DNA of 43,959 bases from a bacterium (GTDB taxonomy: Bacteria; Hydrothermota; DG-26; JAUXAN01): assembly GCA_030619885.1 (NCBI GenBank), contig JAUXAN010000018.1:1-43959 (forward strand). The letters run 5' to 3'. Of this stretch, positions 6,433 to 43,679 are shown piece by piece (the stretch's first letter is position 1; every line of letters begins with the position of its first letter). The notes below the pieces were generated by a model. The model saw only the letters and a list, made by a program, of their open reading frames with translations, ran no database searches and was not told the DNA's origin. A program made the translations under genes and the position numbers.

Positions 6433-7533
6433 TCAATAGAGAATCGACTCAATCAGTTCTTCCGTCTCTAACGCCGAAGTTTCCCATGAAAAATTCTCTG
6501 CCCATTTCGTAGCATTTCTACCCATTATTTTGACTAAATTTCTCTTTTTGATAACCATTTCGATTATATTACTGAGGGAATTTGGGTCACCAAAAGGGTA
6601 AAGAAAACCTGTTTTTTTGTCAATTACAGTCTCTATCAAACCTGGACTGATAGGAACGATAGAAAGTGTTCCTGATGCCTGTGCCTCGAGACTCGTCAAG
6701 CCCCATCCTTCCTTTGGCGATGTATTCACATTTATCCAGGACATAGAAAGTATCCTCGCTTTTTCTTGTTCACTTACATAACCTGTGAATTCAACGAATT
6801 TTTTTATTCCCAGTTTCACCGTGATATTTTTCAGTCTTTCAATATCATCTCCATCGCCTACTATCTTCACCTGAAATTTGTCTAATCTCTGTTTTAGAAT
6901 CTTTACCGCCTGAAGGAGAATATCGAATCTCTTATACCTCTTCAGTCTCCCTATTCCTACGATCAAAGGTTCACGAGATTTCTCCCTTGGTCTAAACTTT
7001 GCGAAGTCAACACCATTGTAAATCACCTTTATATTTTTCATCGGTATGCCCATTTTAACAAGATCCATTTTTGTACTCTCGGAAACGCTTATAAGTGGAA
7101 CATCTCTATAAAAATAGGAAATCGATCTTTCTAATATATAGACATAACTCCCAGAGATAAAATTTGTTTCATAATAGATAAGCTTGCCGAAAAGGTGATG
7201 AACTATACCAATTCTTTTCACAGGAATAAAAAATCTTCCAAAAAAGGGGAGTTTGTTTATATCTTCCATTACGAGATCAAAATTATATTTTTTATCAAGT
7301 TCTGCAAACTCTCTGACGACATAAAAATTGAAATTGTTTCTCTTCCCTACCCGATGAACAAATATCCCATCAATCACCTCCTCCTTGGCTGCACCTTCGA
7401 AACCCGAACAGAGAAGGTGTATTTCGTAACTATTAACAAGACGTTTGAATATTTCAAAAAGATGGACTTCTGCTCCACCCGAGAGAGGATTTTTTATATC
7501 TTCCCAGTTTATTATCAGTATTCTATGCTTCAT
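6433..7533 (-). CDS. Family 4 glycosyltransferase (GT-B fold)
   Basis: About 366 residues. The N-terminal domain has LSGGAEVHLFEI, typical of retaining GT4 enzymes that build surface polysaccharides. The C-terminal domain has IVGIGRLKRYKRFDILLQA and the donor-binding block ASGTLSIVPISPGLIE with the E-x7-E-like segment SPKEGWGLTSLEAQ. The chosen ATG at 7533 lies downstream of a promoter (TTGACA as 7579-7574, TATAAA as 7558-7553). A longer TTG start at 7551 would lie upstream of the predicted transcript start. It is the first gene of a two-gene - strand unit with the methyltransferase. Confidence 0.85.
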   Translation of the reverse strand: MKHRILIINWEDIKNPLSGGAEVHLFEIFKRLVNSYEIHLLCSGFEGAAKEEVIDGIFVHRVGKRNNFNFYVVREFAELDKKYNFDLVMEDINKLPFFGRFFIPVKRIGIVHHLFGKLIYYETNFISGSYVYILERSISYFYRDVPLISVSESTKMDLVKMGIPMKNIKVIYNGVDFAKFRPREKSREPLIVGIGRLKRYKRFDILLQAVKILKQRLDKFQVKIVGDGDDIERLKNITVKLGIKKFVEFTGYVSEQEKARILSMSWINVNTSPKEGWGLTSLEAQASGTLSIVPISPGLIETVIDKKTGFLYPFGDPNSLSNIIEMVIKKRNLVKIMGRNATKWAENFSWETSALETEELIESILY

Positions 7534-7552
7534 CCCTATTTTCGACTTCAAG

Positions 7553-7844: not shown

Positions 7845-7872
7845 TTGACATCTATTATCTGTGTTGTATATT
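7845..7872 (+). promoter_or_regulatory. Promoter of the histidine kinase, predicted leaderless
   Basis: TTGACA at 7845-7850, a 16-base spacer and TATATT at 7867-7872. The -10 box ends seven bases before the ATG at 7880, so transcription would begin at or one base before the start codon. This rules out the longer GTG start at 7799. Confidence 0.65.
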
Positions 7873-7879
7873 TGGAGTT

Positions 7880-9646
7880 ATGGAAAGATACGAATTTCAA
7901 ATAAAATTATCTCTGATACTGTTTATCTTCATCTTCCTTTTAACCGATTTTATTACACTCTACATTATCGCACGTGCCAGAGTAAATTTGACAGAAGAGA
8001 TAAAGAGCAGACTTTTCTTGACTTCAAAGATAATGTATCAAAACATTTCAAAAGCCAACCTCAACTCGATTTCAAAATCGAGCATTAGCAGAAGAGATTA
8101 TGATAAACTCCAGGAATCTATAAGCAATTCTGCATTTCTCTCTTCTGTAGGGAATATCTGTATTATAGATGAAAATAAGAGAATATTTCTTGATTCTAAG
8201 CATAGGAATGCTAATAGAATTGAGATGTATTATGAAAGCATCGAAGATTCTCTTGTTAAAAAAGTAATCAATGGAGAAAATGTATTTTCAAAACCATACG
8301 AGACCAGATTTGGTGATGTACGCCTTGCTTTATTTTCCCCAATAGGAGACAGATTTATCTCCGTTGTGGAAACTTCAGTAGGAGAGGTTTCTCTTATCAG
8401 CAGGGTATCGAAAATAGACTTTGGGTTAAAGATAGCCTTACTCCTTGCCATCTTCGTATTTGGAGTTATCTTCCTCAGATCCATGTTCAAACCCCTTGAA
8501 AGAATGAAACACAAGGCATCTTCTTTAAGGGAAAAGAGGGAAGAAAAGGACATTGATTACATAGTCCATACATTTGAAGAGTCGATTGAAAAATTGAGGA
8601 AAATTGCAGTGGAGGAAGCAAAGAAAAGAGAAAATATAGAAGAGTTCAACAAATATATTCTTAACAGTATGGCATCTGGTGTAATAAGTGTAAACAATGA
8701 AGGAATCGTGACCTGTCTGAATGGGGCAGGTTGTGAGATTCTTTCAGTTTTTGAAGCGGATGCGATAGGAAAAAGATACGATAGAATCTTCGATAAAAAA
8801 ATCTCCGGTTTAATAAGTAAATCTCTGCAGAAAAAACTCGAAGAGAAGATATACGAATTGGATATTAAGAGAAAAGATGGGGAGAATAGATTTTTGTATG
8901 TAAGCCCTGCTGTGATGGAAGATGTGCTGGGAAATAGAATAGGTGTCTCTTTAATATTTTCGGATATGACGGAACTGAAAAAATTACAGGATGAGGTTAT
9001 TTTAAAAGAAAGATTAGCATCTCTTGGTGAACTTTCCGCAGGGATTGCTCATCAGTTCAAAAATTCTCTCAGTTCTATCCTTGGCTATGCAAAGATGCTT
9101 AAAAAGGAGGTTGAGCCAAAGTATATCCATGCGATTACAACAGAATGTGCAGATTTGAACCTTTTAGTAGATGAATTTCTGAAATTTTCAAAACCGCTCA
9201 AACTTTCTACGAGCAAAATTGATATAAACAAATTGATAAAAGAAACGGTAAAACAATTTAAAGACATTTTAAAAGAGAAACAGATAGCTTTGAAGTTGAA
9301 CCTGGGTAGATTTAAAAAGGTGGACGGTGATGGTGTGTGGTTAAGACAGGCATTTTTAAACATATTAAACAATTCAGTTGAAGCGACTGAAGGTGGTGGA
9401 AGCATTACAGTCAGAACTTTTAAAACTTCTTTTGACCGGATATCCATCGAATTCACAGATACAGGTAGGGGAATCCCAAAGAATAATTTAAAGAGGATCT
9501 TTGATCCATTTTTCACCACGAAAGACGAAGGTATAGGATTGGGTCTTTCGATTGCACACAAAATAATTGCAGCCCACAAAGGGAAAATCGAACTAAAAAG
9601 CAAGAAAGGGGAAGGGACAAAAATTTCAATAATCATCCCTCAATAA
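7880..9646 (+). CDS. Orphan sensor histidine kinase with PAS domain
   Basis: 588 residues from the ATG at 7880. The order is: transmembrane segment at about 8-30, an extracytoplasmic sensor domain to about 180, a second transmembrane segment at about 183-203, a charged linker, a PAS domain around 255-370 (SMASGVISVNNEGIVTCLNG), the HisKA dimerisation helix with LGELSAGIAHQFKNSL (phosphoacceptor His391), and an ATPase domain with NILNNSVEA (N box), DTGRGI (G1), FDPFFTTK (F box) and GIGLGLSIAHKI (G2). It resembles NtrB/AtoS-type kinases. No response regulator is adjacent, so the partner is encoded elsewhere. The start is set by the promoter, which leaves no leader. Confidence 0.9.
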   Translation: MERYEFQIKLSLILFIFIFLLTDFITLYIIARARVNLTEEIKSRLFLTSKIMYQNISKANLNSISKSSISRRDYDKLQESISNSAFLSSVGNICIIDENKRIFLDSKHRNANRIEMYYESIEDSLVKKVINGENVFSKPYETRFGDVRLALFSPIGDRFISVVETSVGEVSLISRVSKIDFGLKIALLLAIFVFGVIFLRSMFKPLERMKHKASSLREKREEKDIDYIVHTFEESIEKLRKIAVEEAKKRENIEEFNKYILNSMASGVISVNNEGIVTCLNGAGCEILSVFEADAIGKRYDRIFDKKISGLISKSLQKKLEEKIYELDIKRKDGENRFLYVSPAVMEDVLGNRIGVSLIFSDMTELKKLQDEVILKERLASLGELSAGIAHQFKNSLSSILGYAKMLKKEVEPKYIHAITTECADLNLLVDEFLKFSKPLKLSTSKIDINKLIKETVKQFKDILKEKQIALKLNLGRFKKVDGDGVWLRQAFLNILNNSVEATEGGGSITVRTFKTSFDRISIEFTDTGRGIPKNNLKRIFDPFFTTKDEGIGLGLSIAHKIIAAHKGKIELKSKKGEGTKISIIIPQ

Positions 9647-18123: not shown

Positions 18124-18151
18124 TTAACATAACACAGCGGGTGAATAAAAT
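18124..18151 (+). promoter_or_regulatory. Promoter of the radical SAM gene, predicted leaderless
   Basis: TTAACA at 18124-18129, a 16-base spacer and TAAAAT at 18146-18151. Six bases separate the -10 box from ATG 18158, and no Shine-Dalgarno sequence is present, so the transcript should begin at the start codon. Confidence 0.55.
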
Positions 18152-18157
18152 AGTGCA

Positions 18158-19117
18158 ATGCAGGTAAAAGGTGTTGATTTTCTTCTGACGTTTAAATGCC
18201 CCTCAAAATGTAGACATTGCAGCTACAAAGCCGGGCCAGAAAGAATCGGTTTTATGGATTTAACAGATACAGAAAAGTGGTTAACAGAACTGACTGACAC
18301 TCAGCCGTTTCAATCTCTTACGGTACATGGAGGCGAACCTTTCCTCTACTTTGAAGTTCTGAAGGAAATCATGAAAAAGGCAAAGGAGTTGAAGGTTCCG
18401 CAAAGATGGATTATAACAAACGGCTATTGGGCGAAAACCAAGGCAATAGCCGAAAAGAAACTTGATGAACTAAAAAAATCAGGATTATCGTGCATCACAT
18501 TCAGTGCGGACGCTTTTCATCAGGAATATATCCCTTTGGAAACCATGAGAACCGGCATAGAAGCTGCGACACGGATTGGCTTTGACATGATAGCCGTGGA
18601 CAGCTACTTATTGGGATCCGAAGACGCAGACAATGTATACAATACTTTGACTAAGAAGATAAGTGAAGGTTTGGGAGAATTACCTAATGTTCAATTCTCC
18701 ATGTTTCCAGCTGATTTTGAAGGAAGAGCTACAGACCTTCTAATCGAGTATGTCGAACCAAGAGCGGAGATACCGACGGGCAGATGCGAACTTCCATATT
18801 GGCTGGGTGGGGATCTCGAAAATCCCGAGGGGATAGAGATTGACTTTGAAGGAAACGTAACGCTTTGCCCTGGTATCTGCATTGGCAACGCCATTAACCA
18901 ATCTTTACCCGAGGTACTTAAAAGCTATGATTATCGCGATCACCCCATCATACGCATTATTGCAGAAGAAGGTCCGATAGGACTTCTGAGACTAGCGACA
19001 GCAAAGGGCTACAAAGAAGATCGAAAGTTTGTAGATGAATGCCACCTCTGCTATGAGATGAGAAAATTTCTAAGGCGCTATTATACTCGATATCTATCTC
19101 CTGAGAACTGCTATTAG
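18158..19117 (+). CDS. Radical SAM protein with C-terminal Cys cluster
   Basis: 319 residues. The radical SAM triad is C14-PSK-C18-RH-C21, followed by SLTVHGGEPFLYFE (the GGE motif for SAM binding). The C-terminal part has more Cys (CPGICIGN, CHLCYE), like an abbreviated SPASM or twitch auxiliary cluster, which is typical of peptide-modifying enzymes such as sactisynthase or PQQ-type proteins. It follows tldD-tldE directly, a protease pair known to trim leader peptides, which makes a peptide substrate attractive but unproven. A 23-codon frame at 18096-18167 overlaps the start, but nothing supports it as a precursor. Confidence 0.85.
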   Translation: MQVKGVDFLLTFKCPSKCRHCSYKAGPERIGFMDLTDTEKWLTELTDTQPFQSLTVHGGEPFLYFEVLKEIMKKAKELKVPQRWIITNGYWAKTKAIAEKKLDELKKSGLSCITFSADAFHQEYIPLETMRTGIEAATRIGFDMIAVDSYLLGSEDADNVYNTLTKKISEGLGELPNVQFSMFPADFEGRATDLLIEYVEPRAEIPTGRCELPYWLGGDLENPEGIEIDFEGNVTLCPGICIGNAINQSLPEVLKSYDYRDHPIIRIIAEEGPIGLLRLATAKGYKEDRKFVDECHLCYEMRKFLRRYYTRYLSPENCY

Positions 19118-21584: not shown

Positions 21585-21673
21585 GAAGACCTGCGAATGT
21601 CAAATTCAAATTCGAGGTACACTACATTGTTGAAGAAAATAGGTTTGGAAGACTGATGTAGTTTAATGTAACC

Positions 21674-43018: not shown

Positions 43019-43645
43019 CTACCAATAAAAACTAATGCAGGGTGCCAGACTGATACCTGTCATGTCTATGTAATAATTATATTCATATCCCCAGTAATCG
43101 GGTGGTGACTTCCGGGTCAGTCTGACCGCAAGAGCTTGTAACCTACTTTCAAAACCAACTGAAATAGTTCTCTTTACAAAGAATTCGTATTGAAAGAAGA
43201 TAAAAGCACCTTCTGAAAAACCACTGTTATAGTCTTTCAGACTCTCAGTAGCCCATGCGAGGATAATCCCCCCACCTACAGAGACCCTTCTTCTGTTGAC
43301 GACTTTCGTCTTGAACTCACCGCCTGCCTCTACACAGAAGACTTTCAAGGTCGTCTCAACATCTATAGGACGCTGTGAATATCCATCCCACCAGATATAA
43401 TAATAATCTGTAAAAACGCCTTTATTGTAAGCATAGGAAAGGGAAACGACAACGCTTTTGCTGTGGTCGATGTTAAATTTTCCCCCGAGTCTAAAGAAAG
43501 GTATCACACCGTAGCCGTCCTGCATATCCTCTGCATGTGAGTGAAAAAAGGGAACACTGAAAGAAATCCCATCTTCTGGAATATAAGCCAGACTATCGTT
43601 TTGTGAGGTAGATATTAAGCATAAGACAAGACATAACGATAACAT
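43019..43645 (-). CDS. Predicted outer-membrane beta-barrel protein
   Basis: 208 residues. A signal peptide (MLSLCLVLCLIST...SLA) precedes alternating amphipathic strands (SVVVSLSYAYNKGVFTDYYY, AGGEFKTKVVNRRRVSVGGG, ISVGFESRLQALAVRLTR), and the protein ends in an aromatic residue after alternating hydrophobics (SLAPCISFYW), the recognition pattern for barrel insertion. Size suggests about eight strands. It is the first gene of the - strand operon and lacks a Shine-Dalgarno site. Its ATG coincides with the predicted transcript start. Confidence 0.75.
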   Translation of the reverse strand: MLSLCLVLCLISTSQNDSLAYIPEDGISFSVPFFHSHAEDMQDGYGVIPFFRLGGKFNIDHSKSVVVSLSYAYNKGVFTDYYYIWWDGYSQRPIDVETTLKVFCVEAGGEFKTKVVNRRRVSVGGGIILAWATESLKDYNSGFSEGAFIFFQYEFFVKRTISVGFESRLQALAVRLTRKSPPDYWGYEYNYYIDMTGISLAPCISFYW

Positions 43646-43651
43646 AGTTTG

Positions 43652-43679
43652 AATATAAAATATTTCAGCATGTTGTCAA
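43652..43679 (-). promoter_or_regulatory. Promoter of the - strand operon, predicted leaderless
   Basis: On the - strand TTGACA (43679-43674), a 16-base spacer and TATATT (43657-43652). Six bases separate the -10 box from ATG 43645, so the message should start at the codon. It would drive barrel protein, DUF2330, trpB2, iorA and comF. Confidence 0.65.

Follow-up and report, generated by a model that had tools for sequence, protein, structure and literature searches.

Start-adjacent promoters in the window

The window, a 43,959-nt stretch of a genome of the phylum Hydrothermota with a GC content of about 39%, contains a histidine kinase gene, a radical SAM/SPASM protein gene, an MBL-fold gene and a gene for a putative β-barrel envelope protein, each with a −10-like hexamer close to its start codon (Table 1). 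Promoters were scored in bits with a −35/−10 weight model allowing spacers of 15–19 nt. All motifs named in an earlier sequence-only reading, which predicted leaderless transcription for these genes, lie at the positions it gave, and the complete two-box arrangement that it described was recovered for the histidine kinase, radical SAM and β-barrel genes. Among the 1,641 ATG codons on both strands of the window, four have a promoter at 5–9 nt scoring at least 9, and 19 have one scoring at least 7.

Table 1. Promoter elements and genes of the predicted leaderless candidates in the window
Feature	Position	Strand	Details
Histidine kinase −35 box, TTGACA	7845–7850	+	16-nt spacer to −10 box
Histidine kinase −10 box, TATATT	7867–7872	+	Ends 7 nt 5′ of ATG 7880; promoter score 10.7 bits
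GGAG	7874–7877	+	2 nt from histidine kinase ATG; too close for a Shine-Dalgarno sequence
Histidine kinase gene (PAS, HisKA, HATPase_c), predicted leaderless	7880–9646	+	Start from coding potential alone
Radical SAM −35-like box, TTAACA	18124–18129	+	16 nt to −10 box; TTGACA in the G033 ortholog
Radical SAM −10 box, TAAAAT	18146–18151	+	6 nt 5′ of ATG 18158; promoter score 7.3 bits
Radical SAM/SPASM protein gene	18158–19117	+	Promoter-to-start arrangement supported
TTTAAT	21662–21667	+	6 nt 5′ of MBL-fold gene ATG 21674; score 0.1 bits
β-barrel gene −35 box, TTGACA	43674–43679	−	16 nt to −10 box
β-barrel gene −10 box, TATATT	43652–43657	−	6 nt 5′ of ATG 43645; promoter score 10.7 bits
Putative β-barrel envelope protein gene, predicted leaderless	43019–43645	−	Label from the sequence-only reading

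The claim made for the MBL-fold gene stands in part: the hexamer and its gap to the start codon are present, but no −35 box precedes it and the score is at chance level. The gene was ruled out as a leaderless example on these grounds. The further claim that most of these genes lack a Shine-Dalgarno (SD) sequence holds in effect, although the histidine kinase has GGAG and the radical SAM gene has GGTGA, ending 13 nt 5′ of its ATG and too far upstream for an SD. Both are misplaced. The GGAG offers no usable SD because of its proximity to the ATG, and it would be absent from the transcript if transcription starts at that codon.

The predicted start codons of the three remaining genes are sound. 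Alignments of the histidine kinase with its orthologs in two same-class genomes begin at residues 3–5. ATG 18158 is the sole start codon that keeps the radical SAM CxxxCxxC cluster motif (CPSKCRHC), and an in-frame TAA stop sits inside the −10 box of this gene. The β-barrel reading frame opens within TTGACA, and no start codon lies between the upstream in-frame stop and ATG 43645; the encoded protein has no Pfam match. Start-adjacent promoters are well supported as predictions for all three genes.

Divergent from the histidine kinase, a glycosyltransferase gene (6433–7533, minus strand) is preceded by TTGACA (7579–7574), a 17-nt spacer and TAAACT (7556–7551), giving a predicted leader about 10 nt long before ATG 7533. 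A leaderless TTG start at 7551 was considered for this gene and dropped, as the short leader to ATG 7533 reads better. Apparently, the intergenic region holds a short-leader promoter in one direction and the predicted leaderless promoter of the histidine kinase in the other. Two histidine kinase paralogs elsewhere in the genome (G000:C38:59171-60262 and G000:C80:24003-25043) carry an in-frame stop (TGA and TAA) and would be either pseudogenes or products of assembly errors.

Promoter position across the genome

The window's genome (G000; 2.46 Mb, 86 contigs) was analyzed at position resolution in sampled stretches totalling 1.08 Mb, window included. Gene and start calling relied solely on hexamer coding potential and start-codon type and was therefore blind to upstream signals. 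The sample comprises 884 genes with at least 100 nt upstream, 433 of them first in a likely transcription unit. Among first genes without an SD, promoters scoring at least 8 number 12, 10 and 9 at 6, 7 and 8 nt from the start codon, against 0–3 at each distance beyond 11 nt. At a score of at least 7, 54 of 246 such genes have a promoter at 4–10 nt, compared with 6–8 in each of six equal-width windows further upstream. No pile-up at 4–10 nt is present in SD-led first genes (8 of 187; 4–13 at other positions) or operon-internal genes (5 of 328; 1–5 at other positions); within the sampled 1.08 Mb, the excess is confined to first genes that lack an SD.

The −10 boxes at 5–8 nt are accompanied by a good −35 box in 70% of cases, versus 16% for −10 boxes elsewhere (Mann-Whitney p = 1e-5). 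The spacer in the 54 candidates is predominantly 16 nt (32) or 17 nt (16). Their start codons (49 ATG, 4 GTG and 1 TTG) are compatible with initiation at a 5′-terminal AUG, and no more than compatible. Twenty further genes without an SD have such a promoter before another in-frame ATG, compared with five at a control distance.

The strongest rival to leaderless transcription is a short leader of ~5–15 nt, with AT-rich sequence or ribosomal protein S1 aiding initiation, which we consider unlikely. A multi-S1-domain protein (520-aa frame) is encoded in the genome, S1 binding may lie behind the AT-rich bias upstream of genes (PMC5397173), and the distances of 9–10 nt found in 10 of the 54 candidates would leave room for a leader of a few nucleotides. 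With the peak at 6–8 nt, however, transcripts would usually begin right on the ATG, and S1 binding leaves unexplained the matched −35 box 16–17 nt further upstream.

Mis-called starts, in which the true starts would be SD-led codons further downstream and the promoters would yield ordinary leaders, are very improbable. Calling by coding potential is indeed imperfect and missed two of the window's three starts (18158 and 43645). Mis-calling would nevertheless scatter the promoter-to-start distance, which is locked at 6–8 nt, and a later start would cost the radical SAM protein its cluster motif. The aspartate kinase start is likewise conserved in 30 genomes, and an NCBIfam model for this enzyme aligns from residue 1.

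TAnnnT alone is common near start codons, with 42 occurrences versus 26.7 in shuffles (z 3.4) in the first sample and a weak 15 versus 11.6 (z 1.1) in the hold-out sample. In single-nucleotide composition profiles of genes without an SD, a −10 peak is not visible. A single hexamer is unconvincing in AT-rich DNA, so a two-box model is needed; it was run on both samples pooled, with independent replication provided by the relatives. For first genes without an SD, dinucleotide shuffles give 4.3 promoters scoring at least 7 at 4–10 nt (at most 10 in 40 shuffles), and 0.7 scoring at least 9, for which 40 were observed. The check proposed in the sequence-only reading, a genome-wide scan for −10 boxes against shuffled upstream sequences, thus yields strong enrichment with the two-box model. 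Chance occurrence of −10-like hexamers near start codons in AT-rich intergenic DNA, although the best account of the MBL-fold example with its missing −35 box, is refuted at the level of the whole genome and is the least probable of the rivals, given the more than 10-fold excess of full promoters over shuffles at either threshold, the ~7-fold excess over other positions and the negative outcome in the gene classes expected to be negative.

The 54 candidates include genes for threonyl-tRNA synthetase, aspartate kinase, an IMP dehydrogenase domain, a DNA polymerase A domain and a V-type ATPase subunit. Pfam scans of the 54 leaderless candidates and 54 SD-led first genes reveal no standout shared family. 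Separately, one strong promoter, TTGACAaaATGcTATTTTTATTGgTATAATATTAAAGCAT, is present in four near-identical copies (G000 C1:24351, C11:81479, C14:35849 and C75:21743) and is perhaps part of a repeated element or a multicopy RNA gene.

Conservation in relatives and orthologous upstream regions

The whole genome contains 152 occurrences of the exact pattern TTGACA-N15-18-TANNNT-N5-8-ATG, compared with 53 for a control placing the ATG at N25-28 and 31 for a control with CAT in place of ATG. Across 147 genomes of the phylum, 11,304 occurrences lie at the leaderless distance and 4,045 at the control distance. The leaderless distance exceeds the control in 132 of the 147 genomes, 71 of which pass a Bonferroni-corrected binomial test. 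Ratios by family span 0.7 to 16 and understate the effect, since the control distance also contains real leadered promoters; the counts themselves drop with GC because an exact −35 string is required.

The full blind test reproduces the start-adjacent excess in three relatives (27 of 64 in G032, 18 of 39 in G009 and 8 of 23 in G011, with 0–3 in control windows) and is weak in the same-class genome G001 (3 of 46). The exact pattern shows no excess in the two same-class relatives (29 vs 35 in G001 and 26 vs 21 in G002). With a strong signal in the window's genome and little or none in these two, the trait changes between families.

The radical SAM ortholog of G033 (66% identical, from another family) is preceded by TTGACA, 16 nt, TAAAAT, 6 nt and ATG; boxes and spacings are those of the window, but most of the intervening and following letters differ. 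Two other orthologs (L267 and L268) are without the arrangement. The protein is 62–66% identical to proteins of two other families of the phylum and has matches in only 16 of the 147 genomes, and its gene may have been transferred horizontally between families. Because such high cross-family identity may mean horizontal transfer, the G033 match counts as a single, shallow comparison.

Aspartate kinase has the same start at the 30 loci (relatives 43–50% identical), of which about 14 have a promoter scoring above 7 that ends 5–8 nt before the start, with no SD. The positives belong mainly to families f10 and f36 and the window's own genome, and the ~14 cases are not independent events because most of the relatives come from one family. 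In the same-class relatives, the histidine kinase orthologs follow immediately on another gene and have no promoter of this kind. The prediction of leaderless transcription is supported by positional enrichment, negative gene-class controls and replication in relatives and orthologous upstream regions.

Predicted initiation and comparison with known systems

The promoters match the sigma-70 type (TTGACA, 16–18 nt, TATAAT). Ordinary housekeeping-sigma promoters (TTGACA, 16–17 nt, TAtaaT) with the −10 box ending 6–8 nt 5′ of the start codon would direct RNA polymerase to start at the A of the ATG or a few bases off, producing an mRNA without a 5′ leader. By sequence, a leader of 1–5 nt looks the same as none. 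Translation would proceed by direct binding of the 5′-terminal AUG without SD/anti-SD contact, by analogy with leaderless mRNAs of other bacteria (PMC3160421, PMC5397173). We regard leaderless transcription from start-adjacent housekeeping promoters in this genome as highly probable.

Much of the remaining genome would be served by SD-led initiation. The 16S rRNA 3′ end, CACCTCCTTT, carries the anti-SD CCTCC (GGATCACCTCCTTTCT), and the share of genes with an SD core is 43% among first genes and 55% among the others. The coexistence of two initiation modes, anticipated from the window, is supported by these SD cores and the normal anti-SD. IF3 is encoded as well, and together with the anti-SD and the multi-S1-domain protein it gives the translation machinery an ordinary appearance in these respects. 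Leaderless and SD-led genes would share a promoter type and differ in its distance to the start codon: in SD-led genes the same promoter type is scattered 15–60 nt from the start, a likeness that is partly by construction, both sets having been picked by one model.

The leaderless architecture could be an ancestral trait of the phylum, conserved gene by gene: core genes such as aspartate kinase would have retained it across families, and several families would have lost it or strongly reduced it; we hold this tentatively, with doubt slightly outweighing belief. If true, the phylum would form a natural series in which to study the switching of genes between leaderless and SD-led initiation. Ortholog pairs with and without leaders provide material for studying a change of initiation mode. 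Gene finders that rely on SD sequences alone misplace the starts of leaderless genes, and a lineage mixing both modes calls for annotation correction across the 147 genomes.

A literature search made without the lineage name found no paper on the lineage. Leaderless genes are widespread, with 207 of 953 genomes in one survey (PMC3160421), and in a set with 4,769 bacteria, leaderless transcription is predicted for 21.6% of the bacterial species (Lomsadze et al. 2018, as cited in PMC9581028). The genes described here resemble the TA-led genes of Actinobacteria and Deinococcus-Thermus (Zheng et al. 2011, PMC3160421; Zhong et al. 2025, PMC12340547) in a −10 box ~10 bp upstream, the lack of an SD and the presence of SD-led genes alongside. 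Those high-GC groups have a bare TAnnnT, whereas a near-perfect TTGAC(A) −35 box is also present here, in part through selection by score. The leaderless share is reported as ~20–40% in those groups (PMC3160421, PMC12340547) and here is lower, probably ~12–14% of sampled first genes, or 6–7% of all sampled genes. Low- and medium-GC Firmicutes, Aquificae and Chloroflexi (PMC3160421) likewise have a TAtaaT-type −10 box at a fixed distance from the start codon; the relatives in this phylum differ from them in varying by family, from no excess to 16-fold. Each sequence feature tested places the genome in the leaderless class of Lomsadze et al. 2018 (as cited in PMC9581028), with no categorical difference. 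The leaderless arrangement is known in other bacteria, and what is new here is its test in this lineage.
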